In this document: positions 6,035 through 63,300 of the stretch, one piece after another
Layout of the letters: each line of letters starts with the position of its first letter
Position numbering within the stretch: position 1 is the stretch's first letter
Assembly: GCA_037043455.1 (NCBI GenBank)
Contig: JAWPHD010011459.1
Coordinates: 1-64,000, forward strand
Direction of reading: 5' to 3'
Source: Cyrtodaria siliqua
Lineage: Eukaryota > Mollusca > Bivalvia > Adapedonta > Hiatellidae
Length of the DNA stretch: 64,000 nt
Position numbers and translations under genes: made by a program
The notes under the pieces: model-generated
The model's input: the letters and a program-made list of their open reading frames with translations, nothing else
What the model was told of the DNA's origin: nothing
Databases searched by the model: none

Positions 6035-6915
6035 GCCTCCCCAGTCCTCCTAGCCCCTCCGCCACTGCGCACCTGTTATAAGAGCCAGTAGAGCCTCCCC
6101 AGTCCTCCTAGCCCCTCCGCCACTGCGCACCTGTTATAAGAGCCAGTAAAGCCTCCCCAGTCCTCCTAGCCCCTCCGCCACTGCGCACCTGTTATAAGAG
6201 CCAGTAGAGCCTCCCCAGTCCTCCTAGCTCCTCCGCCACTGCGCACCTGTTATAAGAGCCAGTAGAGCCTCCCCAGTCCTCCTAGCCCCTCCGCCACTGC
6301 GCACCTGTTATAAGAGCCAGTAGAGCCTCCCCAGTCCTCCTAGCCCCTCCGCCACTGCGCACCTGTTATAAGAGCCAGTAGAGCATCCACAGTCCTCCTA
6401 GCCCCTCCGGCACTGCGCACCTGTTATAAGAGCCAGTAGAGCCTCCCCAGTCCTCCTAGCCCCTCCGCCACTGCGCACCTGTTATAAGAGCCAGTAGAGC
6501 ATCCACAGTCCTCCTAGCCCCTCCGGCACTGCGCACCTGTTATAAGAGCCAGTAGAGCCTCCACAGTCCTCCTAGCCCCTCCGCCACTGCGCACCTGTTA
6601 TAAGAGCCAGTAGAGCATCCACAGTCCTCCTAGCCCCTCCGGCACTGCGCACCTGTTATAAGAGCCAGTAGAGCCTCCACAGTCCTCCTAGCCCCTCCGC
6701 CACTGAGCACCTGTTATAAGAGCCAGTAGAGCATCCACAGTCCTCCTAGCCCCTCCGGCACTGCGCACCTGTTATAAGAGCCAGTAGAGCATCCACAGTC
6801 CTCCTAGCCCCTCCGGCACTGCGCACCTGTTATAAGAGCCAGTAGAGCATCCACAGTCCTCCTAGCCCCTCCGGCACTGCGCACCTGTTATAAGAGCCAG
6901 TAGAGCATCCACAGG
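6035..6915. repeat. 58-bp GC-rich minisatellite, about 15 units
   Basis: The unit begins GCCTCCCCAGTCCTCCTAGC and ends GTTATAAGAGCCAGTAGA. Starts at 6035, 6093 and 6151 give a 58-bp period. Variants include GCCTCC/GCATCC and CCGCC/CCGGC, with GCATCC/CCGGC types dominating the right half. It is far more GC-rich than its surroundings. The last unit runs into GGCCCTCTTGTT (to 6925), the same type of end as at 17525-17548. Confidence 0.9.
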
Positions 6916-15300: not shown

Positions 15301-18300
15301 CTGAGTAGATTACAAATGTCCCCTCTAGGTAACCTACCCCACCCATCACAGCTGTTTGGTAGGAGTAGGAACAGGGGCAAGCAGCAGGCAAATGGTAAAC
15401 TGTTTAGTGTTGCGGAACAATCTTACCCATCCTCTTTGTTTTTAGTTTATCTATCCGCTATATCTCACATATAAAATATATAGAAAGTCAGTTACATAGG
15501 TTAAAGACAGAGTAACTTCACTGACAAAATAAATGTTCCTTGATAGGAATTATAAATATAACTAGTAGGAGTGTTCTGGATGTCTAATCTTGTAATTCAT
15601 CCTAAACATTTATACATTAAATTACATTTTAACCTATTGTAAGGGGATCTAAAGTCTTTATGTTACATCCTCTTTATGACTTCTTGTCTTTTTAATGTTG
15701 TCTTTGTGAAAACTTGAGATTTATTTTATATTCTTTTTATGACTTTTTACCTTAAATGTTTACATTGTGAAGACTTAACTTGCAATTATTATAGATTTAG
15801 ACTTGTGGGGAAGAGAAAAGTCAGAGGAAATGCAAGCTCCAATTACTGCTGGGATGAGAAATCTTCCACAATCGGTAAGACGTGCTGATTATAAAAAAAA
15901 GCTCCACAATCTGTATGTAGTGGTGATGGTATTGGAGAAATCTTCCCTGATCTGTAAGCAGAGATGGTTATACAAGAAATCTTCCCCAGTCTGTAAGTAG
16001 AGATGGTTATGGGAGAAATCTTCCCGGATCTGTTTGTAGTGATGGTTATAGGAGAAATCTTCCCGGATCTGTTTGGTTATAGGAGAAATCTTCCCTGATC
16101 TGTAAGTAGTGATGGTTATAGGAGAAATCTTCCCTGATCTGTAAGTAGGGATGGTTATAGGAGAAATCTTTCCTGATCTGTAAGTGGCGATAGTAATAGA
16201 AAGAAATCTTCCAATATCTGTAAGTAGTGATGGTTATAGGAGAAATCTTCCCTGATCTGTTTGTAGTGATGGTTATAGGAGAAATCTTCCCTGATCTCTC
16301 TTTGTAGTGATGGTTATAAGAGAAATCTTCCCAGATCTGTAAGAAGTGATGGTTATAGCAGAAATCTTCCCTGATCTGTAAGTAGTGATGGTTATAGGAG
16401 AAATTTTCCATGATCTCTTTGTAGTGATGGTTATAGCAGAAATCTTCCCTGATCTGTAAGTAGTGATGGTTATAGGAGAAATCTTCCCTGATCTGTAAGT
16501 AGGGATGGTTATAGGAGAAATCTTTCCTGATCTGTAAGTGGCGATAGTTATAGAATAAATCTTCCCCTATCTGTAAGTAGTGATGGTTATAGGAGAAATC
16601 TTCCCTGATCTGTTTGTAGTGATGGTTATAGAAGAAATATTCCCTGATCTGTAAGTAGTGATAGCAGAAATCTTCCCTGATGTGTTTGTAGTGATGGTAT
16701 ATAGGAAAAATCTTTCCTGATCTGTTTGTAGTGATGGTTATAGGAGAACTCTTCCCCTATCTGTAAGTAGTGATGGTATATAGGAAAAATCTTTCCTGAT
16801 CTGTTTGTAGTGATGGTTATAGGAGAAATCTTCCCTGATCTCTTTGTAGTGATGGTTATAGGAGAAATCTTCCCTGATCTGTAAGAAGTGATGGTTATAG
16901 AAATTTTTGCTGATCTGTTTGTATTGATGGTTATAGGAGAAATCTTCCTTGATCTCTTTGTAGTGATGGTTATAGGAGAAATCTTCCCTGATCTGTAAGA
17001 AGTGATGGTTATAGGAGAAATTTTCCCTGATCTGTTTGTAGTGATGGTTATAGGAGATATCTTCCTTGATCTGTTTGTAGTGATGATTATAGGAGAAATC
17101 TTCTCTGATCTCCTTGTAGTGATGGTTATAGGAGAAATCTTTCCTGATCTGTAAGAAGTGATGGTTATAGGAGAAATCTTCCCTGATCTGTTTGTAGTGA
17201 TGGTTATATGACAAATCTTCTCTGATCTGTAAGTAGTGATGGTTATAGGAGAAATCTTCCCCTATCTGTAAGTAGTGATGGTTATAGGAGAAATCTTCCC
17301 ATATCTGTAAGTAGTGATGGTTATAGGAGAAATCTTTCCCGATCTGTAAGAAGTGATGGTTATATAACAAAATCAAAAACTGATCATGTTGGACTAGAAA
17401 CAGCAGAGTTATGGTCCTTGAATTAGGTAAAAAAATACTAAATTTTACTTTGTTAACACTAGCTCCTTCAGTTTTCATTCAGTCTATATCCGTTGTAAGA
17501 GCCATGTTAGCAAGTAGAGCATCAACAGGTCCTCTTGGGCCTCTTGTTTTAGATTTCTTTTAAATTGATTGCAGTTGTTTGGATTTGATACCTGTTATTC
17601 ACTAATAAACACACCACCTGCTTATAAATATGGTAAAGTTTAATAAAGTAGATGAGTTCCATATTTTTAAAACAAAAAACATCTGCCAATGTTATGAATG
17701 TGGTATGCATTGAGTATCCCAGGAAAGAAAGTAAGACTTTGATGATGGAACATTAATAGGCATTGATTTAATTTAATTACTCACATAAATTTGTTAATGT
17801 GCATATCTTTCTTACTCCCAGCAGCAGTTAGGCAAATATATGAGTATCAATTATTTTAAATGATGAAAAATTGGGAAAGGATGTATTGCCAAACCAAAGG
17901 CATGTTGAATAGCTTAGACTCATTAAAATGATAAAACAGTTATTTTGTAAATAAATCCAATTTGTTGACATGAGTGTTTTCCAACCATAGAATCTTTTAC
18001 TGTGTTAGCAGTAGGATAGCATACATTACCTTCACCTGCAGTGCAATAATACAAATGTTTCAGGTGAACTCTAAGTTGAGTGGGTACAGGATCAGTGGTA
18101 GTGTGTGTTCTGTTGCATCTAGGAACACACCTGAGATGATAAAGTCTGGTCCCCATCCCAGTGTACAACGCTCACCAGATATATACTTACCTGTTACATC
18201 AGGGAACCAGTGCAACAGAACACAGTCTGTCAAAGGACACAAGTCTTGGACTGGTCCCCAGAGCAGTTTACAACACTCACCATCCCAGAGACTCTCTGAC

Positions 18301-21300
18301 TCAGGTATGGTGTTATTTGAATTTAAATATTATTCCATGTATGTTTCATATATGTGATGTTCCCCAAATGTTTGTAGACACACATTTTCAGAGTTTCAAA
18401 GATGGAAAGACAACCCTTGCATAATCTTTTAAAATATGTATTATAACTTCCGTTGAGTATCTGTTTATTGTTTACAAACATATATGTCATAATATATAAC
18501 AGTTTACAACCAGAAATTCCAAAAAAACAACGTACTTTTATAAAATAGAGATGGAATGGTTCTCACACTAGATTTATATGATCTATTATCTCTATTTCAT
18601 GTATTGAACAGAACATAACTCATAACTTTAGAAATGTATTTTTGATTGTTTTAAAATGTAAATTTTGCTTACAGCTAAAATATAGGATTATAATTATGGT
18701 TATACCTTTAGATTTGAGCGCTTGCTCGTCTCCAAGTTTCTATGTTGATTGGAATAATGAGAAACCACAGTTGAAGGAAAGAAATAAAAGAAATTTACAT
18801 GTAAGTACATGTTCTGAAATATATTTACCAAAGAGTAATTTTGTGTACCATACTAATAACATAGCTGTTTATTTTACTGACATATTACGTATCCAGCTTA
18901 ATCCAAGATTTAAAGGTGTGCATATATACAACGTTCTGTTCATCAAAATCTGAAAACTTTTCAGAGTTCCAATGCAAATATTTGCACCATACATTGAAAG
19001 CAAATACATACATTGAAAGCAAATGTTTGCACCATACATTGAAAGCAAATGTTTGCACCATACATTGTAAGCAAATGTTTGCACCATACATTGAAAGCAA
19101 ATGTTTGCACCATACATTGAAAGCAGATGTTTGCACCATACATTGAAAGCAAATGTTTGCACCATACATTGAAAGCAGATGTTTGAACCATACATTGAAA
19201 CCAGATGTTTGCACCATACATTGAAAGCAGTTGTTTGCACCATACATTGAAACCAAATGTTTGCACCATACATTGAAAGCAGATGTTTGCGCCATACATT
19301 GAGAGCAGATGTTAGCACCATACATTGAAAGCAGATGTTTGCACCATACATTGAAAGCAGATATTTGCACCATACATAGAAAGCAAATGTTTGCACCATA
19401 CATTGAAAGCAAATGTTTTCACCATACATTGAAAGCAGATGTTTGCACCATACATTGAAAGCAGATATTTGCACCATACATTGAAAGCAAATGTTTGCAC
19501 CATACATTGAAAGCAAATGTTTGCACCATACATTGAAAGCAAATGATAGCACATCATGAAGTATGATTTTAAGATAGTGACCGACTTTTTCAGAAAATGT
19601 TATAATTGAGAAATGAAAAAATCAGCAAGTTATTTTGCATTTGTAAAACTATTTGCCAGGTGGTTGATTCTCCCCTTCTTCGTGTGCCTGAAACTGCCGT
19701 CAATCCATCATGGAAAAGACAGCAGGCACACAATGTGTTCATATCTCAGTCTGGCAGCAGTGATGGTGCTAGTCCAGGAAACCAGCACTCCAGCACTGAC
19801 AGGCTAACCATGAAACCAGGTAAATGGTACTGTTCAAATACACCTCTGTAAAGATGCTGCATCTAAAACTATGTCACCTCTCACTGATGCGGGTTTGCAT
19901 CCCACTGGGAGCTCAGTTGAGTAAATGTTGGGGAGAGGTATACGGTACTGATTCTACCCTAGAAAAATGGGATTGTCTGAGGTACCACAAGTAAATCGAC
20001 CTTCATATATGGCATAACATGCTAAAAGACACAAAACACCATTCAATCTGTTGTTAGATATTGCCCTAGGATAGGAAAAATACTAGCCTGTTGGTGTACA
20101 TCTGTGGTATCAATACATTTATTTGACCATTACCTAAGGTAAATTTGACAATAATTTAATTTAATGCTAATGACTCAGTCAGTTATGTGCTAAATACTTG
20201 TTGAGGAACATATTGTTTGGGGAGCTTGTTTCAGCCAAAGTTTTTTTGGACTTTTCAGGTAAAATACATCTCGTTCCTAAATAAGCTGTATATCAGTGAA
20301 TCAGCCATTTTTAGTGGTAAATAAAAATACCTTACTTTTCAAAATCGGTTGAGAAATAAAAATTGTTTGCCCAAGAGCTGTTTTTGATGGGGCAACTCTG
20401 CTGCTTTTTTTTTTTTTATAGAATTTGTATCCGAAAATGGTTTCAAATTGTTGGATATTCGTAAATTAATACAACCTGAAAGTTTTATAGCAAAATATGA
20501 AGGCTAACTGAAGTTATATGATATTTCTTAATTTTCTGCTGTCCCACCAACAAGGAATTTGCATGGGAAAAGCCCCATCAAAAATCAGTTGGGCTGTAAA
20601 ATATTTATTTCTCCACCGATTTTCAAAACTAAGATGTTTTTATTTACCACTAAAAATACCAGTTCTACTGCTATAAAATTGATGTACGTATTATTTAAAT
20701 TGCTCAAGCTACTGCAGAAAAACCTTTGTCTGAAACAAGCGCCCCAAACAATAGGTAGATGAATTTGTTTAAACAAGGATGTTTAACATTAAACATTTTA
20801 TCACTTGGAAAAAACATTCTTCCATTAAAGTTCAGCTGAAAATGTTGAATAAAAACTTATTTCAGACATTTCAATGTTGCTTTTGTTCAAATTATATTGT
20901 ATAAAGTATCGAGAACTTTTATGTAATATTTAAGCATAAAATATTAAATCATCGCTTATCTATATCAATCAGAGGATGATCATGATGATGATGAGATATA
21001 CACCCAGTTGTACAAACCTAGGATGATGTACAGAACAGAGGTATTAAACAATGCCTCACGCAAACATATTCTTCAACAAGACCATAGTCTTGACCAGGGA
21101 CGTCTTCAAGATGTGCCTCAAGAGGATGACCTTTGTAGTAACCCAGAAAACAGGGACAACATGACTGGAGTACTTCAAAGATGCGATGAGGCTATCAGCT
21201 GTGATCTGCAGGATTGTATTAAACACCGACAGAAAGACGAGTTCAGACAAAATCCATTTGAAAAGAGGAGATATTGCTCAAATGTTGATCAAAACAAAAA

Positions 21301-24300: not shown

Positions 24301-27300
24301 TAACCAAGCTGAAATAAGCACACTGCAGGCGACACAAGTGTTCCGTGGAACACCCTTCTAGTTGGAAATTGCTTAACCTAAAAGAAGATTGGTAATTCGT
24401 TTGATTCAGTCTGTTTATTAATTCTAAATTATTGTTAATGCAACAGTTTTCTGCTTTATGCAGTATGAAACCTAGCACTTTATAAAGAGAGGATTTTAAA
24501 TGAGTTTATATTTAGTATTAATTTTTGGCACGAGTTTGGTAAGTTGATTCAGAATTAAGAAAGTGAATTATTGGTTCACAATAAGCTCCAAGGGTTCAAA
24601 ACTTTATTTTATAAACGATCGTGATAAAATGATTATAAAAAAAAAAGAGCTTTGATCCTGTTTATTATATGTCTGTCTGCAGCTGTTGCAAAATGCCAAA
24701 TGCACGAGTGCGTTAACTAAGCACCTTTATTAGGCGTTTTAATATTGTAGCTAAATTAATTTAATTAACACGTAAAGCAGATGATAACAGAATATAATGT
24801 TATATCAGTCTTAATCTTTACTTTTCCCACTGTGAAAACCTGCAGATATAATTCTCTTTTCATCCTCAATATTTACTGTTCAGATTCAAACCACCAATGA
24901 TGATGAAGGTAGCCACACCTGCCATGAAGAAGTTTACCACACATACTGACATACAAACTACCAGTGCTGTCACACGTGGACAATCACAGGTAAATGTTTA
25001 ATATGGAAAATACTTAACAAAGTGGACTATAATTGCAGTCACTGGAGCATTAAGATAAAAACAACAGTTTGATTGGTTCAGGGCTAAACACGTGATCATT
25101 TAAGCTATATTCATTCTTGAATAAACTGTACAAAGAAATTCTTGTAGGAATTTTACTCTTCTATAAATAGAAGTTTCAACATTTTGTGTATTCATCCAAC
25201 ATTCTTGGAAAACAACAACAAAACTGAAAAAACTAATTGATTGTAATAATTAGTGTAATATAAATAAAACATTTTTAAAGGATAGTTGGAATTATAAGGA
25301 TTTAATGTACTTTCATCTGCACTCATTTAAAAATATCTGTAATTACCTTCGACTGTGTCTATTAGACTCCAGTACGGCTAACTAGAGAGTGCTATACTTT
25401 TAACTGCACTCATTTGAAAATATCTGCAATTACCTTTGGCTGTGTCTATTAGACTCATGTATGGCTAACTAGAGAGTGCTGTACTTTTATCTGCACTCAT
25501 TTAAAAATATCTGTAATTACCTTTAACTATGTCCATTAGACTCCAGTATGGCTAACTAGAGAGTGCTGCACTTTTATCTGCACTCATTTGAAAATCACTG
25601 CATTTACCTTCGACTGTGTCTATTAGACTCCAGTATAGCTAACTAGAGAGTGCTGTACTTTTATCTGCGCTCATTTGAAAATATCTACAATTACCTTCGA
25701 CTGTGTCTATTAGACTCCAGAATAGCTAACTAGAGAGTGCTGTACTTTTATCTGCACTCATTTGAAATATCTGCAATTACCTTCGACTGTGTCTATTAGA
25801 CTCCAGAATAGCTAACTAGAGAGTGCTGTACTTTTATCTGCACTCATTTGAAATGTCTGCAATTACCTTCGACTGTGTCTATTAGACTCCAGAATAGTTA
25901 ACTAGAGAGTGCTGTACTTTTATCTGCACTCATTTGAAAAGCACTGCAATTACCTTCGACTGTGTCTATTAGACTCCAGTATGGCTAACTAGAGAGTGCT
26001 GTACTTTTATCTGCACTCATTTGAAAAGCACTGCAATTACCTTCGACTGTGTCTATTAGACTCCAGAATAGTTAACTAGAGAGTGCTGTACTTTTATCTG
26101 CACTCATTTGAAAAGCACTGCAATAACCTTCTACTGTGTCTATTAGACTCCAGTATGGCTAACTAGAGAGTGCTGTACTTTTATCTGCACTCATTTGAAA
26201 AGCACTGCAATTACCTTCGACTGTGTCTATTAGACTCCAGAATAGCTAACTAGAGAGTGCTGTACTTTTAACTGCGCTCATTTGAAAAGATCTGCAATTA
26301 CCTTCGACTGTGTCTGTTAGACTCCAGGATGGCTAACTAGAGAGTGCTGTATTTTTATCTTCGCTCATTTGAAAATAACTGCAATTACCTTCGACTGTGT
26401 CTATTAGACTCCAGTATGGCTAACTAGAGAGTGCTGTACTTTTATCTGCACTCATTTGAAAAGCACTGCAATTACCTTCGACTGTGTCTATTAGACTCCA
26501 GAATAGTTAACTAGAGAGTGCTGTACTTTTATCTGCACTCATTTGAAAAGCACTGCAATTACCTTCGACTGTGTCTATTAGACTCCAGTATGGCTAACTA
26601 GAGAGTGCTGTACTTTTATCTGCACTCATTTGAAAAGCACTGCAATTACCTTCGACTGTGTCTATTAGACTCCAGAATAGTTAACTAGAGAGTGCTGTAC
26701 TTTTATCTGCACTCATTTGAAAAGCACTGCAATTATCTTTGACTGTGTCTATTAGACTCCAGGATGGCTAACTAGAGAGTGCTGTACTTTTATCTGCACT
26801 CATTTGAAATATCTGCAATTACCTTCGACTGTGTCTATTAGACTCCAGAATAGCTAACTAGAGAGTGCTGTACTTTTATCTGCACTCATTTGAAATGTCT
26901 GCAATTACCTTCGACTGTGTCTATTAGACTCCAGAATAGTTAACTAGAGAGTGCTGTACTTTTATCTGCACTCATTTGAAAAGCACTGCAATTACCTTCG
27001 ACTGTGTCTATTAGACTCCAGTATGGCTAACTAGAGAGTGCTGTACTTTTATCTGCACTCATTTGAAAAGCACTGCAATTACCTTCGACTGTGTCTATTA
27101 GACTCCAGAATAGTTAACTAGAGAGTGCTGTACTTTTATCTGCACTCATTTGAAAAGCACTGCAATAACCTTCTACTGTGTCTATTAGACTCCAGTATGG
27201 CTAACTAGAGAGTGCTGTACTTTTATCTGCACTCATTTGAAAAGCACTGCAATTACCTTCGACTGTGTCTATTAGACTCCAGAATAGCTAACTAGAGAGT

Positions 27301-30300
27301 GCTGTACTTTTAACTGCGCTCATTTGAAAAGATCTGCAATTACCTTCGACTGTGTCTGTTAGACTCCAGGATGGCTAACTAGAGAGTGCTGTATTTTTAT
27401 CTGCACTCATTTGAAAATAACGGCAATTATCTTTGACTGTGTCTATTACACTCCAGGATGGCTAACTAGAGAGTGCTGTACTTTTATCTGCACTCATTTG
27501 AAAATAACGGCAATTATCTTTGACTGTGTCTATTACACTCCAGTATGGCTAACTAGAGAGTGCTTGCGATTTAGTTATCTGTTGTGCCTAGATTTGAAAA
27601 GGACAGTTTGTAAAGAATTAGTTATCAATCATTTCAACCGTCACAGTTGAAATATTAATCCTTTTCTTTTCTATAAATAATATAAATTAAGGAACTCTGT
27701 AAAATTTGATGGGACCTCACATAAAACACATGTGAGTCACTGCATAGGAACTTGGATCCATCATAATAGAATATTTTAAAGTTCTAGTGTTTAAAATTGC
27801 AAATATTTGTTTTGGAGGTAATTTGCATATCTTCATCTTTCATGAAGTCATTGATACTTCTGGAAAGTTGAAAATATGCAATTGCTTAATTACTTTCAAA
27901 GTGAAATCCACCTCTCATGCTTGAGTTGCTGTTTATGATAATGATGCTATTGTAGCATCAGTGTCCATAGCTGCATGAAATAATGATAAAATCAAATACA
28001 TAAAAGTGTGTCGAGAATGAATATAAATATATCCATGAAATGTAAACAAGAGCATCATTTTGCTTATTACAGGGTTTGAGCAGTTATGAGCTGAGGTTTC
28101 CCAGTAAATCCGATATCGACTGTATACAGTCAGTCGCCAGGCAGGTGTTTATACCAGAGACATTTCCCTCAATAAATGTGTATAAACAGGTCCTTACTTC
28201 TGCCATGACAGGTGAGATTTCGTCTCTTCTGTATTGGTTTGTTGAATTCTAGTGGTTTGTCTGCATTCAAGGGATTTGATTGTATTGTTTTTAATGTAAA
28301 TATAAGTTTGATAGCAAGGAAATTCATTCAAATAATGTAGAAAGAAATCTGATAGCAAGAAAATTTTCAGAGACATAATGTAGAGAGAAGTTTGATAGCA
28401 AGGAAATTTTCAGAGACATAATGTAGATAGAAGTTTGATAGCAGGGAAATTCATGCAAATAATATAGAAAAAAATCAGATAGCAAGGAAAATTACAGAAA
28501 TAATGTAGACAAAAGTTTAATTGCTAGGAAAATCACACAAATAATGTTATAGAAGTTTGATTAAATATATTAACATTTATTTCACCACCAGAGTACATCA
28601 ACACTCAGCTTTACGATGTGGCCAAGAGGTTCCATCATGCTTTGTTGAAGGTGGACACCACAGGATATATGGCATCTAGTACTGGTGAGTGTGTTTACTG
28701 TCATATCACAACCATCACCCATTAACACTCATGGCCATAGAGTGATATAATACAAAATTGACATGGGCAACACACGTTAAAATAATATTGAAAGTTCAAT
28801 CGCTTGACTTCTTAAAAAAAGAAGACATCTTTGAGCATTTTTGGGCTTGAGTGCAAAATTGTTTCTGTAATTTTCAGGTTCCATAAAGTCCACAGGTGAC
28901 AGCAGCAACCCAGCATGTCAGTGTGGGGCTCCATCGAAGATGGTGATGGTCAGAAAGGAGGGCCCAAATAACGGGAGACACTTCTATGCTTGTAGTGCCA
29001 ACAGAAAACAACAGTGCAAGGTAGGTGCTTAACTGAAACAAAGACTTTGGCCTGAAAGAGCCTCAGGTGAAACTTAACTTGTACAATATGTGTACATTGT
29101 ATTTATATAGCTAATTGCAAAGAGAGGAAATCTCCGATTGTAATAAAAGGAAACGTTTGGCTAAACGTAATTCAGGGTTTCCCCCAGAAATTTGTGAAGG
29201 CATGTTGTTCTGACATTACATTTACCAAACTGGGCTTGAAAAAAATAGTGCCTATTAATGGCAAAATGGCAAAATAACATACTTTCATGATTTTGGTGCA
29301 AAAGGAACAAAAATCACCACAGAAATTCTATTTTTCTTCTTTTAAATCTGTTATTCATGAAAATTAAGAAAATCTTAAGGCATGTTGCTCTGATGAAGGC
29401 ATGTTGTTTTTCCTTTCTTTTCCAGGAAGGCATGTTGCATGCGACATGCCTTATGATCCTGTGGGAAACCCTGGTAATTTGTTTCTCAAGACTTACATCA
29501 ATAATTACCCTTTATTGAAATAATTAATTCCTGATATGAATTATTTATTTACCGGTATTAACTTCTAAATTATTTTAGTATTTCCAATGGGCTGATGAGA
29601 AAACTAAAGGGGCATATAACGTGGCGGGTGCCAAGCGTAAGATTGCAGACTCATACAGCCTAAGTTTGTACATGAAGAACCACCGTGTCAACTTGTACGG
29701 GGATTGTCATCTGGCACAGCGTACCAGGGAGAACATTAAACCTTACTTTAAAGCACAGGTAAGGTGGTGGTGGTGGTGTTCAGATGGAATAGAAAGGTGT
29801 CAACCTTTAACTTTAATACTTCAGCAGTGGTATAAAATTAAATAAGATATTCACTTATTTGAAGAACCAATTATTTGATATACTATACAGTTATTTGTAT
29901 GGGGTTGATCTATAGACGTTAGTAAAAGTGAAATTGATATATATCAATACAGTGTGTAACTGACATGGCATATAACACACAGGTTCAGGTAGGGAATTCT
30001 TCACTGAGGTATAACGGTTTTGATCTGAACCCATACTCTGCAGTTGTACAGATCAAACAGTCAAAACAAGCACGCCGACAACTGGAATTTTACCAAACTA
30101 CCTATGTAGTATCATGATGGGTGTTACTCTTCAGGAGTTATCTTACGAAATGAGTATGTGTCCAGCGTACCCTATATAGTGCATGGTTTGTTTTACCCCT
30201 TTGGTGGATATCAGAGAGGGGTAGCATATTATACACAATGACAGGGGACCATGTCAAGTTTTTTATAAAATGAATTGGGAAAAATTAAATCAGAATTGAT

Positions 30301-33300
30301 TGGGCAGGTTGTGGTCACATGTTGCCCGATAAGACAATGTATTAACTTGAGAAACATTTTGACTTTTCATATTGACTTAAAGGCATGGTTAATGTATATG
30401 ATGTTAATTAAACAACAAACGTCATAATTATACTCACACATTGGTGCCTAGTAATAGGTAAATTGACAACCATAAATCAAAACTACCATGTCATATGTAT
30501 GTTATGTGGTAAATAGAATCTGTGAAAAACATTCCCCTGGAGATTTTGTAATAAAACTGTTATTGCCTTTTAGATTCAGACAATACATGGGTTTATCGAT
30601 CCTTTACTCAGGGTGATAAAAACCTGTATTAACCTCATAAAAAAGGCGATAAATGTATTTTATCTGGAAGAAACATGTATACATGTGAGTTTCATGTGTG
30701 TAAAGGTGCTTACTAGTCGTGCCTTTGCTGGTGTACCCTTGACAGTTGATTCTTTGAGCCCACAATGTTTGTTTTACAAGCAATATGTTGAATCCCAGAA
30801 CATTTCTTTTCCAGAAATGGGCGCGTGGGAGAGGAGATGGTGAGACACTTCAGAAGAAACAGATGTTCCTGAAACTACCTCATAAAGGGCGCTCATCCAT
30901 GTATGCAAAAGGTGAGTTGGACATTTGTATGATAGTTTGGAATTACCGAGAGTGTTGGTCAGATTGTTTGTCTCGTTTTCTGACCCATCCCCCAGGAATG
31001 TTAATTAACTGAGAAAAAAGAACGTTCTGTATGATGTCTACTGACTGGATCCCAAATGCTACTATTACTAATGAACGGTTTTGTAATAGAAAATTTTGCA
31101 TCGCTGCACTGCTAGAACTGCTATTGGTGTTCAGGAAGTATTGTGTTTTCTACTGAATTAACATGATGCCAGTTTTCAATCATTTATCCATTTAAGGCAA
31201 TCAAACCAATAAGATACCTCCGACAAACAATAGCACGTGCAACTGTACTATAATGCATGTACAGCTGTGTTCTAATATAACCTATCGTCGGCATACTCTG
31301 ACTTCAATAATAGGTCAGTGATATCTAAGTCCTGATCATCAACTTTTGACTTTAGTAATATATATGACAAATACATTTCCATTTTAATTCTTTATTATAG
31401 ATGACATCTGGATAATCTCCCAGCACATGGATTTTGACCCATCATGTACATTTCTGGCCAGGAGTACTTACTTTGGTCCTACGTCAGCCAACGAGGTCGA
31501 GATAGAACCTCTGGTGGGGTACAGCCCTTCTAACTGGCCCAGTGATGGTGAGTTTACCTCCACCAATCGGATAGATCGAAAATTGTTCTAGCAGCAGCCT
31601 TAGCACCAAGTTATGTTTATACTGATAAATTTTCCAGATGTAATTAGCAAAGATTTAGTGTTCATTCAACTGTCTACTGCGGTTATGCTTTGTTGCAGAA
31701 TACATGATTTAGATTCCACAAGTTTTGGATTTCCTCAGTCTCTAGGTTGATTGCATTATCCATTCATACTCATACGAACCTTAAGGGCTGTGTATTGTTG
31801 ATAGATGCACTAACATTGAGGGCTGTGTATTGTTGATAGATGCACTAAAGCTAGGGCTGTATGATGCACTAAATCTAAGGATATGTATTGTTGATAGATG
31901 CACTAAAGCTATGGCTATGTATTGCTGATAGATACACTAAACTAGGGCAGTGTAGTGTTGATAAATGCACTAAGGCTATGGCTATGTATTGTTGATACAC
32001 TAAAGCTATGGTTATGTATTGGTGATAGATGCACTAAAGCTAGGGATATGTATTGTTGATAGATACACTAAAGCTAGGTATATGTATTGTTGATAGGTAC
32101 ACTAAAGCAAGCGATATATATTGTTGACAGATGCACTAAAGCTAGGGCTATGCATTGTTGATAGATGCACTAAAGTAAGGGCAACATATTGTTGATAAAT
32201 GCACTAAAGCTAGGGCTGTGTATTTTGATACACTAAAGCTAAGGTTATGTATTGTTGATAGATGCATTTAAGCTAGAGATTTGCATTGTTGAAAGCTGCA
32301 GTAAGCTATGGCTATGTATTGTTGATACAATAAAGCTATGGTTATGTATTGTTGATAGATGCACTAAAGCAAGCGATATATATTGTTGACAGATGCACTA
32401 AAGCTAGGGCTATGCATTGTTGATAGATGCACTAAAGTTAGGGCAACATATTGTTGATAAATGCACTAAAGCTAGGGCTATGTATTTTGATACACTAAAG
32501 CTAAGGTTATGTATTGTTGATAGATGCATTTAAGCTAGAGATTTGCATTGTTGAAAGCTGCAGTAAGCTATGGCTATGTATTGTTGATACAATAAAGCTA
32601 TGGTTATGTATTGTTGATAGATGCACTAAAGCTAGGTATATGTATTGTTGATAGATGCACTAAAGCTAGGGTTATGTATTGTTGATAGATGCAATAAAGC
32701 TAGGACTGTGTATTGTTGATAGATGCACTAAAGCTGGGGCTATATATTGTTGATAGATGCACTAAAGCTAGGACTATGTATTGTTGACAGATACACTGCA
32801 CTGGTGAGTGTATTTGCTGTCATGTAACCATTGCTGGCCTTATCTGACAATAGAAAGACCTGCATATATCCTTTCGATAGATACACTAAAGCCAAGGTTA
32901 TGTATTGTTGATAGATGCACTTGTATTGTTGATAGATGCACTAAAGCTATGGCTATGTATTGTTTATAGATGCACGTTTTATTATGTATATATTAGCTGC
33001 AGAAAATCTACATAAGTATTTCGGTGACATGTGTATTACCAATAAAAACATTATGTTATAAATTGCTCTAAATACACTTTAATCGTATCTTTATTTACAG
33101 TAGCGTGTCATGCCATCTTGGCAGGAAATGCCTCGTCTGAGTTGAGTTGTATAGAGAATATCAGGGAACATATCCAGTCGCAGTCACCACCTGTCATACC
33201 CCATCTCCTCAGCAGGTCAGTATCAGGGAACATATCCAGTCACAGTCACCACCTGTCATACCCCATCTCCTCAGCAGGTCATTGTCAGGGTACATATCCA

Positions 33301-36300
33301 GTCACAGTCGCCACCTGTCATTCCCCATCTCCTCAGCAGGTCATTATCAGGGTACATATCCAGTCACAGTCGCCACCTGTCATACCCCATCTCCTCAGCA
33401 GGTCAGTATCAGGGAATATATCCAGTAACAGTCGCCACCTGTCATACCCCATCTCCTCAGCAGGTCATTATCAGGGAACATATCCAGTCACAGTCGTCAC
33501 CTGTCATACCCCATCTCCTCAGCAGGTCAATATCAGGGAACATATCCAGTCACAGTCGCCACCTGTCATACCCCATCTCCTCAGCAGGTCAGTATCAGGG
33601 AACATACCCAGTCACAGTCACCACCTGTCATACCCCATCTCCTCAGCAGGTCATTATCAGGGTACATATCCAGTCACAGTCGCCACCTGTCATACCCCAT
33701 CTCCTCAGCAGGTCATTATCAGGGTACATATCCAGTCACAGTCGCCACCTGTCATACCCCATCTCCTCAGCAGGTCAGTATCAGGGAACATATCCAGTCA
33801 CAGTCGCCAACTGTCTTGCCCCATCTCCTCAGCAGGTCAGTATCAGGGAACATAACATACCCAGTCACAGTCACCACCTGTCATACCCCATCTCCTCAGC
33901 AGGTCAGTATCAGGGAACATATCCAGTCACAGTCACCACCTGTCATACCCCATCTCCTCAGCAGGTCATTATCAGGGAACATATCTAGTCACAGTCGCCA
34001 CCTGTCATACCCCATCTCCTCAGCAGGTCAGTATCAGGGAACATACCCAGTCACAGTCACCACCTGTCATACCCCATCTCCTCAGCAGGTCATTATCAGG
34101 GTACATATCCAGTCACAGTCGCCACCTGTCATACCCCATCTCCTCAGCAGGTCAGTATCAGGGAACATACCCAGTCACAGTCACCACCTGTCATACCCCA
34201 TCTCCTCAGCAGGTCAATATCAGGGAACATATCCAGTCACAGTCGCCACCTGCCATACCCCATCTCCTCAGCAGGTCAGTATCAGGGAACATACCCAGTC
34301 ACAGTCACCACCTGTCATACCCCATCTCCTCAGCAGGTCATTATCAGGGTACATATCCAGTCACAGTCGTCATCTGCCATACCCCATCTCCTCAGCAGGT
34401 TATTATCAGAGAACATATCCAGTCACAGTCGCCACCTGTCATACCCCATCTCCTCAGCAGGTCATTATCAGAGAACATATCCAGTCACAGTCGCCACCTG
34501 TCATACCCCATCTCCTCAGCAGGTCAGTATCAGGGAACATATCCAGTCAAAGTCGCAACCAGTCGTACCCCATCTCCTCAGCAGGTCAGTATCAGGGATC
34601 ATATCCAGTCACTGTCATACCCCATCTCCTCAGCAGGTCAGTATCAGGGAACATACTCAGTCACAGTCGCCAACTGTCTTGCCCCATCTCCTCAGCAGGT
34701 CAGTATCAGGGAACATAACATACCCAGTCACAGTCACCACCTGTCATACCCCATCTCCTCAGCAGGTCAATATCAGGGAACATAACATACCCAGTCACAG
34801 TCACCACCTGTCATACCTCATCTCCTCAGCAGGTCATTATCAGGGAACATATCCAGTCACAGTCGCCACCTGTCATACCCCATCTTCTCAGCAGGTCAAT
34901 ATCAGGGAACATATCCAGTCACAGTAACCACCTGTCATACACCATCTCCTCAGCAGGTCATTATCAGGGAACATACCCAGTCACAGTGGCCACCTGTCAT
35001 GTCCCATCTCCTGAACAGGTCATTATCAGGGAACATATCCAGTCACAGTCACCACCTGTCATACCCCATCTTCTCAGCAGGTCAATATCAGGGAACATAC
35101 CCAGTCACAGTGGCCACCTGTCATGTTCAATCTCCTAAACAGGTCAGTGCTCCAACAATAGGACAACCCATTGCGCGAGGCCCTGATTTTGCAAACAAGA
35201 AGCCATTTAGGCCTGTTCAAAATGTTTTAGATTTTTAGCTCAACTGATCTAGATCAGCAGTTTATGTCTGTCCGTCCGTCCGTCTGTCCGTAAACTTTTA
35301 TTTGTAGCGACTACTCCTCTGAAACTACTGGATGGATATTCATGAAACTTTACAGAAATGTTGCCCATGAAGTCTAGTTGATCCTAGGAAAAAATCATGT
35401 TGATGTGAAATCCAAGATGGCCGCCAAAGCTAAAAATAGATTTTTAAAATACAAGTTTGTAGCGACTACTTCTTGAAAACTATAAGTGATATTGATATGG
35501 GACTTTTTCTAAAATGATCAGCATGACATGATGTTGGTCCTTGTCAAAAAATCGTTTTGATTTGACGTTAAACATGGCTGCAAGCGGCCATCTTTGTTTA
35601 CATAGAGTTATATAGTAAAAACTTGTAGCGACTACTCCTCTGAAACTAATTGGCGGTTTTTATGAAACTATACAGGAATGTTGCTCTTGATGTCTAATTG
35701 ATTCTAGCAAAATTTCAGGTCGGCCAGAAATTCAAGATGGCCGCCACAGCTTAAAATAGATATTTAAAAAATAAGTTTGTAGCGACTACTTCTTGAAAAT
35801 CATAAATGATATTGATATGGGACTTTTTCTAAAATGATCAGCATGACATGATGTTGATCCGATTCGAACATTATATTGATTCGACGTTAAACATGGCTGC
35901 CAGTGGCCATCTTTGTTTACATAGAGTTATATAGTAAAAACTTGTAGCGACTACTTCTCTGAAACTACTTCACGGATGTTCATGAAACTTGACAGGAATG
36001 TTGCTCGTGATCTCTAGTTGATCCTAGAAAATGTTCAGGCTGGCCTGAAATTCAAGATGGCCGCCACGGCTAAAAATAGATTTAAAATAAATAAATTTAT
36101 AGCGACTACTTCTTGAAAACTGTAAGTGATATTGATATGGGACATTTTCTAAAATGATCAGCATGACATGATGTTGATCCTTGTCGAAATTTATTTCGAT
36201 GCGACTTTAAACATGGCCGCTAGCGGCAATCTTTGTTTACATAGATTTATATAGTAAAAACTTGTAGCGACTTCTTCATGAAACTTTACAGAAATGTTGC

Positions 36301-39300
36301 CCATGAAATCTAGTTGATCCTAGCAAAAATTCATGTTGATGCAAAATCCAAGATAGCCGCCAAAGCTAAAAATAGATTTTTAAAATATAAGTTTGTAGCG
36401 ACTACATCTTGAAAACTATAAGTGATATTGATATGGGACTTTTTCTAAAATGATCAGCATGACATGATATTGGTGCTTGTCAAAAATTGTTTTGATTCGA
36501 CGTTAAATATGGCTGTCAGTGGCCATCTTTGTTTACATAGAGTTATATAATGAAAACTTGTAGCGACTACTCCTCTGAAAATGCTTGACGGATTTTCATG
36601 AAACTTCACACGAATGTTGCTCTTGATGTCTAATTGATCCTAGCAAAACTTCAGATCGGCCGGAAATTCAAGATGGCCGCCACAGCTAAAAATAGATTTT
36701 CAAAAAACAAGTTTGTAGCGACTACTTCTTAAAAACTATAAGTGATATTGATATGGAACTTTTTCTAAAATGATCAGCATGACATGATGTTGGTCTTTGT
36801 CAAAAATCGTTTTGATTTGACGTTAAACATGGCTGTCAGCGGCCATCTTTGTTTACATAGAGTTATATAATGAAAACTTGTAGCGACTACTCCTCTGAAA
36901 CTACTTGACGGATTTTCATGAAACTTCACAGGAATGATGCTCTTGATGTCTTGTTAATCCTAGAAAAATTTCAGGCTGGCCGAAAATTCAAGATGGCCAC
37001 CACAGCTAAAAATAAATTTTCAAAAAACAAGTTTGTAGCAACTACTTCCTGAAATCAAAATCAATCAGTAGAGCTTCAAGGTCATTGACCTCTTGTTTAA
37101 TTTCTTTTTTTCTTATTCACTCAACTAATTTGTTATTATGCAGTTTTTTCAAACAAAAATCAATCCTCCTATCCACTTGTCTTACTTTGAAAGCTTGGTC
37201 TCCATTCCCAAGTAACAGTGAAAAAAAGTCTTAATGAAGGGGTTATGAAAATGTGCCTTTTTACTTGTTTAAATTACCGGTCCTATTATGCGTATTACCT
37301 AGGTTATGGTGCAAGAAGAAATTTTCAGGGCCTGTAAATTTTGATTCAGGACCTGTCCATTTTCGGAAGCATTAAGCCCTGCAGGAAGTTCTGTTTACAT
37401 GACCTTTTTGTTCTACTTTAGTGTTTTCTGTGTGCCAAGTCTGGCACAAAGCGATGCTGTTAGTTCCGTTTACACAACCCTCCATGTAGTAGTAGCTTGT
37501 AGTTTTTTCTATCATGTTATTGTCATGTGCTGTCAAATTGTTGTCACTTTTAATTGGGAATAAGCACACATTTGGTTAAAAAATTTCATGTTATTCTGTT
37601 TCTACATTTCCTCTGGGACATATAATAGCTGCCAACCATGAACCACAATTTCATCTTGGATATGTTTTACACTGTAGTGATTGTTTTAATGTCCATATCA
37701 TTTTCTTACTTTATTCATGGGTCTACAGTGATAAACTTAATTGATGGTTGCATCTCGAGGCTTGCACTCAAAAGATTTGGGACAATGACACATTTCTTTA
37801 ATGCTGGCTTTATTTCCAGGCCCAGTGATGTTGAGTTGATAGACAACTCAAGTAAAGGATTTCAGACACCAAGGACTGTACCACAGACATGCAGAAACAT
37901 ACACATACATTCTGAGCAAATGGTAAGTATGATGTGTCTTAAAACTATACTACTACAGTTATTTAGATGTGGGATGTTTAACAAGACCCTAACCCTTTGC
38001 TTGTTATATTTCTGTTCCTTGTACATATGAGATTCCATTTTCTATTCGACACCCGTGAGCAGTTTCATAAAATGGTTTTGATGGGGTTTAACAATGTTTC
38101 TGGGATATACCCCTTCAGATTTGTGTTTTTTCGTCTTTGCATGGCCTCTATTAAGTTTTTGCTTTTCGTTAGCATTCAATACTCAAAATGGCAATCTTAA
38201 ATCATATAGGGAAATGTAAAAAGTAACTTTTTCTCTGAAACCGCTTTCTGTATATTAATGAAACTTGATATCCCTTGTGTTATTTGTATATATATTGTTG
38301 TTGGATTTATAAACGTCCGTTTGAAAAAAGCTACTTACTATGGTATGGGGTAGTCCGTTCGTCCTCCCAAAAACAATTGTGCATTCCACACAATAACTTT
38401 GAATCCGTTACTTTCTCACTCAGGAAACTTGATAGGTGCATTGCTCTTGGTAATTGGAGGAACCATATTGTTTTGGGGATCAAAGGTCAATAATCAAGGT
38501 CATCACGGCCTTATATAGAAGTATTCTGTGCGATAACTTTGAAAGCATAACACTCATGCAACTACAATATTTCAGTGGACCAACCTTAAATGCCACACGT
38601 GCTTGCATAAAACTCACCAAAGAGAATGATATCATGCAGATCTATTCTAGTCATATGGCATTGAGTGATATCAACATCTTAGACTGTGGTGATATTTATC
38701 TGTGTTTTGTAGGATGAGTTAGTGAGGGAGTACATAGAGGAATACAATCTCAATACCGACCAATCAGAGGCCATCAGGCGGGTAGCTAACATGTTCTCCG
38801 TGGAGAAAACAGACATTGTGGATAGTGTTCTACTTATTCATGGTGAATTGCCTTTTATTCCTAGATTCTTACTTTTTTACAAATTGCTTTATGATGTTTA
38901 GTCCAAAAGTTATTTATCGCGGACATAAATGCGCTTCATCACTGATAATTTATATTGTTAGGAACACTGAGTCCCATGGTCTATGGCTATAGAACAGAGG
39001 ACATGTGACACTTGTCAGTTATGGTTAAGTGTAACATCTAAATTTCCCTTACCTTAAATGTTGTTTTGTTTGTTTGAATGGTGTTTTATGGCATTTTTGT
39101 GCCGCCTGCCTAGCATGGTAGACACATAGGGATCTCTTTGTCCGTCATCGCTGTCACACTTTAACCTGCAACCTAACCTTGGCCATAACTAAAAGTGTTT
39201 GACCTATGTTCATAAATCTTCACACACATTTTCATCTTACCTCAACAACACATGTTGTTACACATGTCCAATAACTCTGACTTACATTTTGCAACCTAAC

Positions 39301-51300: not shown

Positions 51301-54300
51301 AGAAATGCAGTGGTATACCAGAAACTTCCTTTAATTAGTGTTTACTCCACTTTTTAAACCAATCTGAAGGCTCAGAATTTCAAATACTTGCACCATTTAT
51401 TCATGAAGATTTTACTACCAGTGCTCTTCATGATTTAGAGTGTGATCTATACAGAGACTATCGATAAAACCTATTGTAAACACTAAGCCGGTTAAAGTCT
51501 ATGAAGAGACATCTTCACCATGAGAAACCACGGTCGGTCACTACGCTCCCTCCCTTTCGGTTTCTTTAATGGTAAAGATTTCTCTTCATAGCCTCTATCC
51601 TATACAGTTAAATTCTTATCAGTTAATCTATATGCTTATAGAACAGATTGTGGATAATAGCGAGCTCTGATAGCATACTGCAGTCGACAGATAATGTAAA
51701 CACCACTGTTCGTGAACACCACGCTTAGTGCATATCTATTTATAGAACGATACCATAGAGTTGTCTGGATTGATTTATGTTTAGTTCAATAAATACACAT
51801 AAAACAAGGAAATCTGAAACAGAATAGATTTAACACAAATAGTGAAAACAAATAAAGGTAGTTGGTTTAAATATGGTTTTAGTTTGTGTAAGACTGCCTA
51901 CGAAGAGTAAATATATGAATTGTAATTAATGAAAAGATTAATTCTCTTGTATGCTTAGATTTAAACACCTTTTCTTTGTCAGTGACGGCCTGTATATAAA
52001 CCTTTTAAAGCCACCTGGTTGTTATCGCTTCTCGGCCTTTTGGCTAAGATCAAAGTGTAGTATCTGTTCTTATCAGCTTAATATCTGATACGTCCCCCAT
52101 TGGGGGACTTCGATATTAAACTGATTTTTGGACTTAGGTGAGATGTCAGGGGCTTGCTCCGCTCTCGCCACGGGTTGGCCCGGTATTGCAGTACCTCCGG
52201 GATTGGCCCACTTCCCCCTCGGGGGATAAAAACAATAAATGGTAGAAAATTCAGCCTAAGGACTAATATCCAGATTTGGTCTGGCTTCAGTTTATGGGAT
52301 AGCTGTACATAGAAGTAAATGTTTTTGTTTTTAGCTCTGCTGTTTCATGGTTGCATATTTTCTTTTCATTTTTGGTATGATGTGAAAATATGAAAACCAC
52401 GTAAAGTTGCTTTCCACTAATTATACAGGCTTCATAAGTTTACACTCCACTAATTTTTACACAAGATTCCACAAAGTTTTTAATTATTTGTCCTGTTATT
52501 TAACAGATAATTGTTGCATATGTTTTATGACCTGAAAATACATAATAATAACCTCATAAAGTTATACACTACTAATTTTAAGACCTTGTAAGGTTACACT
52601 ACACTAATTTACGTTGTGTCGCGTTGCGTCATGTCCCATTTAACAACTAATGGTTGCATAATTGCTTTTCCTTTTTGGTATTTTGTAAAAATAAATTTAT
52701 TTAAAGCACATAAGGTTACATTCCACTAATTATACAGACTTCATAATGTTCACTCCGCTCATTTTACATAAGATTCCACTAAGTTTTTAATTATTTGTCC
52801 CGTTTATTTAACAGATAATGAATGCATATGTTCTTTTTCCTTATTTTATGACATGAAAATACGCAATAATAACCTCATAAAGTTATACACTACTGATTTT
52901 AAGACTTCACAAGGTTACACTCCATTAATTTACGTTGTGTCGTGTCTCGTCTCGTCGCGTCCCGTTTCATTATTTAACAAAGAATGGTTGGATGGTTGCA
53001 TATTTGCTTTTCCTTTTTGGTATTTTGTGAAAATACATTATGAAAACCACATACGGTTACATTCCACTAATTATACAGACTTCATAAGGTTACACTCCAC
53101 TAATTTTTACCATAGATCTAAATACACTGGATTTGAAACATGTCGTAAATCCAATTTATCCGCCAAATAATAATTTACCCATGAATACATGCGCATTATG
53201 CTAAGTTTCGCACCGTCTTACGAATTGATCAGATGTAAGAAAATCTAGTATACATATCATTGTTAATTTATTTGTTTTGGGAAAAGTATTTACAATAGCC
53301 GGCTATTTCAAAGACGAGTTGAAAGATAATTCTTTATTCTATACAGTGATGTTGGGTTTAGCTTTACTAAAAACGAAATAAATGACAAAAATTACGTTCG
53401 TTTGACCGTATGTGAAACTGCGACAGTGACGTGACTGGGCAAATTTAAAAAATATATATATATACATATCGTTGCTGATTTGTTTATTGGGAAAAGTATT
53501 TAAGCTAACTGGCTAATTCAAATACGAGCTGAAGGATAATTCTTTATTCTATACAGTGATATCTGTTTTAGCTTTACTAAAAACGAACTTAATAAGAACA
53601 ATTACGTTCGTTTGGCCGTATGTGAAACTGCGACAGTGATGTGACTCAGCAAATTTAAAATATATATATACATATTGTTGCTGATTTGTTTATTTTGGGA
53701 AAAGTATTTAAGCTAGCTGGCTAATCAAATACGAGTTGAAAGGTAATTTTTTATTCTATACAATGATGTCTGTTTAAGCTTTACTAAAAACGAACTAAAT
53801 AAGAACAATTACGTTCGTTTGACCGTATGTGAAACTGCGACAGTGACGTGACTCGACAAATTAATATATATATATATATACACATATCGTTGCTGTATTA
53901 TTTCTTTTGGGAAAAGTATTTAAACTAGCTGGCTAATTCAAATACAAGCTAAGAGAATATTCTTCATTCTATAAAGTGACTTCTGTTTTAACTTTAATAA
54001 ACGAAATAAATAATATGGCCGTAGGTGAAACTGTGACAATGATCATGTGACTCTGCAAATTGTACATATACATGCATAATGATACATGTAAGTACATAAG
54101 TTAGCTGGCTCATTAGGTAATTCGACTTGATTTTGGCTTCAGTTAAACTATGATGGATTTAATGATCTATTGTTCCATGTTGCACGTCTGGCGCTTTCTA
54201 ATTAACACCGTTCGATACTGAATATACAGTGTGGTCAACGTGTCTGTGTCGGCATTTTGTATTTTCATACAATTCAGTTTTGTCACCATGTGTGCCAATA

Positions 54301-60300: not shown

Positions 60301-63300
60301 GTTGTCTGGATTGATTTATGTTTAGTTCAATAAATACACATAAAACAAGGATATCTGAAACAGAATAGATTTAACACAAATAGTGAAAACAAATAAAGGT
60401 AGTTGGTTTAAATATGGTTTTAGTTTGTGTAAGACTGCCTACGAAGAGTAAATGTATGAATTGTAATTAATGAAAAGATTAATTCTCTTGTATGCTTAGA
60501 TTTAAACACCTTTTCTTTGTCAGTGACGGCCTTTATATAAACCTTTTAAAGCCAGCAGGTTGTTATCGCTTCTCGGCCTTTTGGCTAAGATCAAAGTGTA
60601 GTATCTGTTCTTATCAGCTTAATATCTGATACGTCCCCCATTGGGGGACTTCGATATTAAACTGATTTTTGGACTTAGGTGAGATGTCAGGGGCTTGCTC
60701 CGCTCTCGCCACGGGTTGGCCCGGTATTGCAGTACCTCCGGGATTGGCCCACTTCCCCCTTGGGGGATAAAAAACAATAAATGGTAGAAAATTCAGCCTA
60801 AGGACTAATACTATTTTCAGTATGGCTTCAATTTTTTTATGGGATAGTTGTACTCAGAAATGTTTTTGTTTGTTTAATTTGAACTCAAATACTCCTGTTC
60901 TCTTGGAATTACTTTCCAATACATGCTAGAGTTCGTGATCACCTGTGACCTTTGCTGTGAGAGCATGTGTCCCTACATGAGTGCATAGGTGCATCCAGAT
61001 TAGGTACAGGTTCTGTTTATGCTGACTTTTAAGCACAGAATATTAACCAGACTGCATCAGTATGTATGTTCCCTTTTGTTAAAACTAACACTTGTTCGAC
61101 ATTGACAGCTGGTCCTGCTAGATGAATGCAGTCAGATGACGGAGCCCGCCTCACTGCTGCCTGTTGCCAGATTTGCCTGTCATAAACTCATCCTTGTGGG
61201 AGACCCAAAGGTAACAACCAAGTTTCAGTGGAATCTAATCACCTGGCCAAACAGTATGCTTTATATGCTGAACGACAAGCAAGGGAGCTACTAGTGTGAC
61301 CATGCCTAGGATTGATCCCACAACCTCCTGCATTTGTTGTGGATGCTCTACCACTAAAGTACTGCAGCTGTTGATATACTAGCAGACTCTAGAAGTACTT
61401 GTTGATAGTCTAACCACTATTATCACATAACTTATGGTGTGGGAATGGAATAACACCATTCTATATTTTCGATATATATATATACCACTAGTTCTATAAG
61501 TATGCAAATGAACCTAGTATGCGCTGTCAAAAAAAAATCGATAATGACTATGATCCAAATCCCGCGGTTTATGTCGGTTTCGCGTGTAAAAGAGACAGGC
61601 AAAATGCAATAAAAGTCAATCATTCATTATTGAATTTTATTAAACTCGTTAGCATTTTGCCAACTCGTTTAATAAATTCAATAATGAATGAGTACCCATG
61701 TAATATCCTCTATTTATCTCACTTGACTTACATAAAGAGAATCTATACCTTTAATGTGTGTGTGAGAATGCCTCGTTCTTTCCAAATGTCCTATGGTTGG
61801 AAATCCCTTTCTTACACTTTAAGTAGGTGGCTTCCCATCCCGTTAAACTACCGTCAGCATGTACCTATATCAGGATCTACTGCACATATTTACATCTCTT
61901 TATTGATGTCAAAGTTGTTATCCATATTCTATAATTGTATAACCTTTTTCTATGCCTTTTACACTGATCTTAGCCTCAAATTATCTATATATCTATAAAT
62001 ACTGCATCACCCTCTTGAAGACTATGTGCAGACTAGCAATGTTTTATATATTAGACTATATACTCCATGTTAAAAAACATTCTTAGCATTCACATAATTA
62101 TGATACAATATCAGGATGAAAAAGTTACTTCCAGCTTTCCTAAATTTGCCCTTATATGACTCGACTTGTAAGTGAGGAAGTGTTGATTCTTACGGATGGC
62201 GGGAGGTGTACAGTACACCCCGGAATAGTGGGTGGTCTGCCTCTCACCACAAAAAATTGACCATCATATATAACCTTACACGTGTTAAAAATGACGTAAA
62301 AACCCATACAAGACTGAATGAACACTATCTTCTAATTAAATAAAAGTCATATATCAGGCTATTATCTAATTTGTGTGTTGGTATGATTTTCAGCAACTTG
62401 ACCCTACCATCCATGGTGCAGAGGTGGCCCACTCCAGTGGTCTGGAACAGACACTGTTTGACAGACTTATTAAGATGGTAAGATGTTTCTGCTGTGTGTC
62501 AATACTAGTAATCATATTGACAAGTATTTGGACATAATCATAACCATATACTGATTGTGATTTGTTTGTGTTAAGTAATTTAGAGATATGTCAAAGAGCA
62601 ATAAAAACACCTTTGATGTTGTAGTAATAGATATTCAGGTTTGTCTACAACCGTTTGTCTTTTTGTACCTACAGAAAAAGTATCTTAAACTTCTTTGAAT
62701 AGCATAAACAATAATTTCCTTTTATTTCATGGAAAATCATTGATATCACAATACATTTTAATTTTAATACCTATAACCATACAATTTCATTATTGCATAT
62801 GCATTTACAAGCTCCGTTTACTTTGTAACAGGAAAAGTCAATATTCGCTCATATTGAGGTGTAGTGAAGTCATATTGGGTGTGTAATGAATACTCTTTGT
62901 GATTCAGGTTAATTTTCTGTTCATGTCAAAGAAAAATTCCCACAATGTAATGACAATAATTATGTTGTTTCAAATGAATGTTTTTGGTGAAAATTAAATG
63001 TTACAATCTATTTTATTGTTCTAATTTAAAAATGCATATGCAATAAAAAAGGTTATTAGATTTATATTGGGGTATATGTACTCGTTCTTTCGCACATACA
63101 TATTGCGCTCCTAAAGTCGCACAATATTAATATGTGAAATAACTTGTGCATATATCCCAATACAAATCTAATAACCTGTGATCATTCCTACCTTGGTCAG
63201 CCATTACTTCTCGGAATATTACACAAATGACCAGGACAATATATTGGAGTGGTTCATTGGGTTGTTACTTCAACAATATTGCCTGGAGAAGGTTAGTATT

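Follow-up and report, generated by a model that had tools for sequence, protein, structure and literature searches.

The window, by which we mean the whole 64 kb stretch analysed (36% G+C, without N), carries on its plus strand a gene that is, judging by its sequence, a ZGRF1-like helicase gene, in agreement with the ZGRF1 assignment of the initial annotation. Five bivalve ZGRF1-like proteins matched its exons in order from 28073 to 63510 (tblastn), with the exons of the GRF zinc finger and of the SF1 helicase motifs following one another in the expected sequence. Pfam AAA_11 was found in a scan covering the joined window exons, and the relatives' proteins are the ones that carry the GRF domain annotation. 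A protein search with the 54-residue helicase exon (39 hits) gave bivalves as the closest relatives: Mercenaria with 85% identity, and Mactra and Ruditapes with 83%. Two full-length matches to U2 spliceosomal RNA (52024–52216 and 60565–60757, 190.3 bits each, plus strand) both fall between the helicase exons at 46115 and 61109.

The exon of interest, exon 17 in the numbering of the initial annotation, matched all five bivalve relatives with 61.5–81% identity over 37–39 residues (tblastn starts at 33100 or 33106) and has the acceptor TTTACAG/. The reading frame stays open between 33046 and 33852. At its 3' end lies a tandem array (Table 1) which TRF called at 33159–35148 with a period of 62. 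The initial annotation had described the 62-bp unit as the end of exon 17 plus its 5' splice site, and the alignment of the units confirms this composition (57 bp of exon and GTCAG); the eleven donors that it listed are all present, but the array continues beyond unit 11, where that list stopped, to 32 units. Twenty-eight units are 62 bp long, units 12, 26 and 27 are 67 bp long owing to a 5-bp insert, and unit 24 has 52 bp; the mean pairwise identity is 0.91. The unit boundary coincides with the exon end, and AG/GT is retained, in 32 of 32 units. The most variable column is donor position +5 (G in 14 units, T in 13, A in 5; 18/32 not G). Because mirages (see below) are expected to homogenise within the array while sparing the outer units, differences from the consensus were counted: unit 1 differs at two positions and unit 32 at eight; among the interior units, the largest numbers of differences are found in unit 24 (11, of which 10 come from one deletion), unit 30 (6), and units 20 and 25 (5 each). 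The exon-like 57 bp show 11, 10 and 11 variant types at codon positions 1, 2 and 3, with 15, 27 and 26 variant cells, respectively; with no third-position bias among the unit variants, no coding selection on the units was seen.

Tandem copies are confined to one splice boundary. Of the 17 donors and 17 acceptors compared in this region (34 boundaries, positions approximate), only 33216 is accompanied by them (31 copies); none was found at the other 33, where 31548 gave one short dispersed match. Downstream of the donor array, the same intron also contains a 320-bp repeat of about 5.6 copies (35302–37054).

Table 1. Features of the exon 17–exon 18 region of the ZGRF1-like gene (positions in the window).
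Feature	Coordinates	Strand	Remarks
Exon 17, ZGRF1-like	33101..33215	+	115 bp; phase 2 end, ..CTC CTC AGC AG
Tandem array, 32 units of 62 bp (last 57 bp of exon 17 + GTCAG)	33159..35147	+	TRF, unit alignment
First donor GTCAGT, presumed authentic 5' splice site	33216..33221	+	joins exon 18 in frame
In-phase strong copy GTCAGT, unit 4	33402..33407	+	
In-phase strong copy GTCAGT, unit 7	33588..33593	+	
In-phase strong copy GTCAGT, unit 10	33774..33779	+	last in-phase strong copy before the in-frame stop
First strong out-of-phase copy GTCAGT, unit 11	33836..33841	+	7 more up to 35143
First in-frame stop TAA	33853..33855	+	arises from the 5-bp insert in unit 12
Unit 32 donor	35143..35148	+	runs into GTCAGTGCTCC
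Exon 18, RPSDVELIDNSSKGFQTPRTVPQTCRNIHIHSEQM	37820..37922	+	tblastn match in 3/5 relatives (P0088, P0089, P0090); splice sites read
Next exon, helicase core start (DELVREYIEEYNLNTDQ..)	38713..38842	+	tblastn of relatives

The position of exon 18 was obtained from three of the five relatives searched; the other two, the Mya and Dreissena proteins, gave no tblastn match to it. Its acceptor is TTTATTTCCAG/GCCCAGT and its donor ATG/GTAAGT, and it begins with R-PSDVELIDNSSKGF, to which R-QNVDTEQVRNSSRGF corresponds in Mercenaria. Joined to exon 17 at 33216, this exon would read HLLSRPSDVELIDNSSKGFQTPR, the Mercenaria protein having HLLNRQNVDTEQVRNSSRGFQAPK at the junction. In the relatives' proteins the alignment covers unit 1 and continues directly with exon 18, and an insertion of 62 residues at this junction is absent from 16 of 16 bivalve proteins compared. 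Since the phase 2 end of exon 17 and the position of exon 18 fit the relatives, the argument of the initial annotation that only every third donor restores the phase needed by exon 18 is correct. In two predicted proteins duplications were observed nearby: the exon 17-equivalent segment (VMVHGLHVGNASNELTCISNIQEHINTRTLPIIPYILNG) occurs twice in tandem in P0118 (Amphiura filiformis), possibly an independent duplication of the same exon, and P0104 (Mytilus edulis) has a duplication of the segment immediately preceding the Walker A motif (STALIRVARMFTDQQKDILLIH).

Past the array, an open frame (APTIGQPIARGPDFANKKPFRPV) continues that of the exon, over 663 codons with two stops, as might be expected if the array were a whole intron gained according to the Rogers model, with the exon resuming directly at 35148. 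However, the true continuation in the relatives matches exon 18 at 37820–37922, and joining the first donor to the last AG of the array (35142) is out of frame; we therefore reject this reading, to which we attach a negligible probability.

All eleven donor positions and hexamers given in the initial annotation proved accurate: the in-phase donors 33216, 33402, 33588 and 33774 read GTCAGT, the six donors between them are out of phase (GTCATT at 33278, 33340, 33464, 33650 and 33712; GTCAAT at 33526), and 33836, likewise GTCAGT, lies out of phase. GTCAGT is indeed the better donor, with a calculated U1 duplex energy of −9.9 kcal/mol for the +5 G class (−9.1 kcal/mol in unit 32) against −5.6 kcal/mol for the other units. 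On a scoring matrix derived from 15 further donors in the gene, GTCAGT reaches 11.6, GTCAAT 7.6 and GTCATT 5.5, and only 0.33% of the GTs elsewhere in the window score as high as a GTCAGT unit. It should be noted that the weak copies are reduced, not dead, since GTCATT still outscores 3 of the 15 gene donors (leave-one-out); they also pair with U1 like some genuine donors of the gene (−5.4 kcal/mol at 38843 and 43727).

Could the distal in-phase copies serve as alternative 5' splice sites? Use of 33402, 33588 or 33774 would add 186, 372 or 558 nt, which agrees with the 62, 124 or 186 residues before the helicase core given in the initial annotation. The open frame up to the stop and the high score of GTCAGT are compatible with this, but none of the 16 bivalve relatives has such an insertion, no coding constraint is seen in the units, and the exon would become 301, 487 or 673 nt long, so that we regard such use as very improbable. 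The units were also considered as recursive-splicing or cassette acceptors; this was rejected, with CAGCAG/GT scoring from −3.6 to 0.4 as an acceptor and 13 of 16 gene acceptors scoring above 0.4 (leave-one-out; a small matrix, in which one acceptor is perhaps misplaced).

According to the initial annotation, the strong donors recur in reading-frame register. In units 1–10 this holds without exception, with 4/4 in-phase donors strong and 6/6 out-of-phase donors weak; as a general rule it is not supported, with strong donors in all phases beyond unit 10. Units 11–32 contain eight strong donors out of phase and four weak ones in phase, so that over the whole array the 14 strong (+5 G) donors are distributed as 6/10, 4/10 and 4/12 among phases 0, 1 and 2. 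The one-sided Fisher p is 0.005 for units 1–10 (0.012 without unit 1), 0.015 for units 1–11, 0.008 for 12 units, 0.025 for 18 units, and 0.19 for all 32. When prefixes of all lengths were scanned, unit 1 being held constant, the permutation p values were 0.013 (phase 0) and 0.042 (any phase), and shuffling in blocks of 2, 3 and 4 units gave p = 0.009, 0.022 and 0.018; two of 31 rotations reached the observed register value, one of them being the observed order itself. In simulations of neutral copying, the scan value was attained in 0.37–0.77% of runs with single units, 1.6–2.4% with blocks of 1–3, and 1.3–2.2% with blocks of 1–6, rising to 2.9–18% with blocks of 3 and 2.8–12.5% with blocks of 3 or 6. 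These statistics concern one array, and the p values are optimistic because the pattern was picked by eye, after the fact, from 64 kb. Nominally, the prefix pattern is an unusual one. The register exists in units 1–10 and is absent afterwards, and the results do not permit dismissing it there as a trivial repeat effect.

The alternative offered in the initial annotation, a plain 186-bp higher-order repeat, is not supported. The periodicity at phase-neutral positions of the unit, which it named as a sign of such a repeat, was looked for and not found: at lag 3 the similarity of the other variable columns in units 1–11 is 0.84 versus 0.84 expected (p = 0.71), and in all 32 units 0.72 versus 0.75 expected. 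At lag 6 it reaches 0.91 in units 1–11 (p = 0.026), an excess explained by the resemblance of units 2–4 to units 8–10. The autocorrelation of the +5 base in units 1–11 is 0.62 at lag 3 (p = 0.11) and 0.80 at lag 6 (p = 0.064).

Copying in blocks is visible in the alignment, pairing units 2–4 with 8–10, 11–12 with 25–26, and 15–16 with 19–20; in units 15–20 two unit types alternate every 124 bp. Copying of two-unit blocks makes strong donors step through the three phases, whereas three-unit blocks hold the phase. Several units identical outside +5 differ at that base (17 versus 8, 15 and 19; 12 versus 26; 21 versus 22; and 9 versus 4, 10 and 16), which means that the +5 base does not simply track block history. 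Lying at the seam between units, this base may have been uncoupled from that history by copying breakpoints or by frequent mutation.

A selective origin of the prefix register can be proposed on these data: out-of-phase copies near the exon, whose use would break the protein, would have lost the +5 G, and in-phase copies would have been tolerated, so that purifying selection on splicing would have sorted the nearest donors by phase, keeping strong ones only where errors stay in frame. The perfect sorting of units 1–10, the scan p of 0.013 together with the frequencies of 0.004–0.024 under general neutral copying, the in-frame stop that closes the stretch where phase could matter, and the variability of +5 are in line with such selection. 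Against it stand the eight strong out-of-phase donors in units 11–32, the U1 pairing of the weak copies, which is like that of genuine donors, the probable origin of units 8–10 as a copy of units 2–4, which leaves few independent cases, the simulations in which three-unit block copying alone attains the pattern (2.8–18%), and the post hoc choice of the pattern. We consider this selection unlikely, though less so than the use of distal donors.

The anatomy of the array corresponds to a kind of repeat that is already known. Mirages were described in the lancelet globin genes BflGb6 and BflGb9, with Adh3 cited (PMC3087553), and in lancelet PGBD5, with Adh and TnC cited (PMC3902484); the available text of both papers presents them as minisatellite-like tandem duplications of an exon–intron boundary with AG/GT signals in the units and the adjacent exon intact, and reports regular splicing as undisturbed. 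In the clam array, the consensus unit likewise spans the boundary (57 bp of exon and 5 bp of intron), and its 62 bp lie within the 10–72 bp given for lancelet Adh3 in the available part of PMC3087553. It differs from BflGb6, as far as that gene is described there, in having 32 units instead of 3–6 and a bivalve host. Among the literature matches listed, none names a molluscan mirage, which does not imply absence from print. The potato RdRp case (PMC4974935, available in part) is similar in that the duplicated stretch includes AG/GT or the exon–intron boundary; in the clam, however, the intron pre-existed, no new intron arose, and the next exon lies 2.7 kb past the array.

Ordinary intronic minisatellites, one of which is reported from an abalone gene in the available text of PMC6905558, share tandem units and block copying with the array but differ from it in that each of its units includes a splice site as well as coding sequence. 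Several others occur in the same gene, among them a 39-bp array of about 37 units (15919–17364) in an earlier intron, and the window has further large ones at 6034–6914 (58 bp), 19007–19552 (26 bp), 25306–27564 (87 bp) and 31863–32797 (34 bp). In the region 15855–17400, exact GTAAGT occurs 15 times on the sense strand and 0 times on the opposite one; the 39-bp array was rejected as a second exon-derived array, as none of 13 relatives' proteins has an exon there.

The array is thus best read as a large mirage in a bivalve ZGRF1-like gene: probably a boundary-spanning minisatellite, with copies 2–32 intronic and 33216 the donor most likely to be used. This reading is supported by the unit boundaries at the exon end, the copies found at 33216 only, the relatives without an insertion, the even distribution of variant types over codon positions, the visible block copies, and the lancelet arrays of the same anatomy. 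Counted against it are the donor core (−5 to +4), with 3/288 variant cells as against 68/1664 for positions 1–52 of the unit, a difference that might point to constraint, though the cells share ancestry and we draw no conclusion; the rarity of the prefix pattern under neutral copying without a three-unit preference (0.4–2.4% of simulations); and the differences at +5 between units alike elsewhere, such as unit 9 and units 4, 10 and 16.

We infer the following order of events for such a mirage. The minisatellite would have been born when the 62-bp piece TATCAGG...CAGCAGGTCAG (57 bp of exon end and GTCAG), which spans the 5' splice site of exon 17, was duplicated in tandem, new copies being inserted between the exon and the old intron; the donor of unit 32, running into GTCAGTGCTCC, would then probably be the original intron start before the expansion. 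Single-unit and block copying would have brought the array to 32 copies, of which copy 1 would remain the coding exon end and the others would become intronic and free of coding constraint. The spliceosome probably uses 33216, the sole donor that keeps the ancestral protein, the remaining 31 being cryptic. Whatever the number of copies, splicing at the first donor would leave the protein intact, so that the array would be free to grow, and the prefix register would result mostly from block copying and mutation at +5.

Taken together, our results extend mirages, named only in lancelet papers among the literature found, to a bivalve, and the array provides a natural experiment in 5' splice-site competition, with 32 near-identical exon ends of two donor classes in one transcript. 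If the nearest donors were after all sorted by selection, the 640 bp of array closest to the exon would be a fossil record of the costs of mis-splicing, and confirmation of the register in other haplotypes would let selection against cryptic splicing be seen directly, which is rarely possible.
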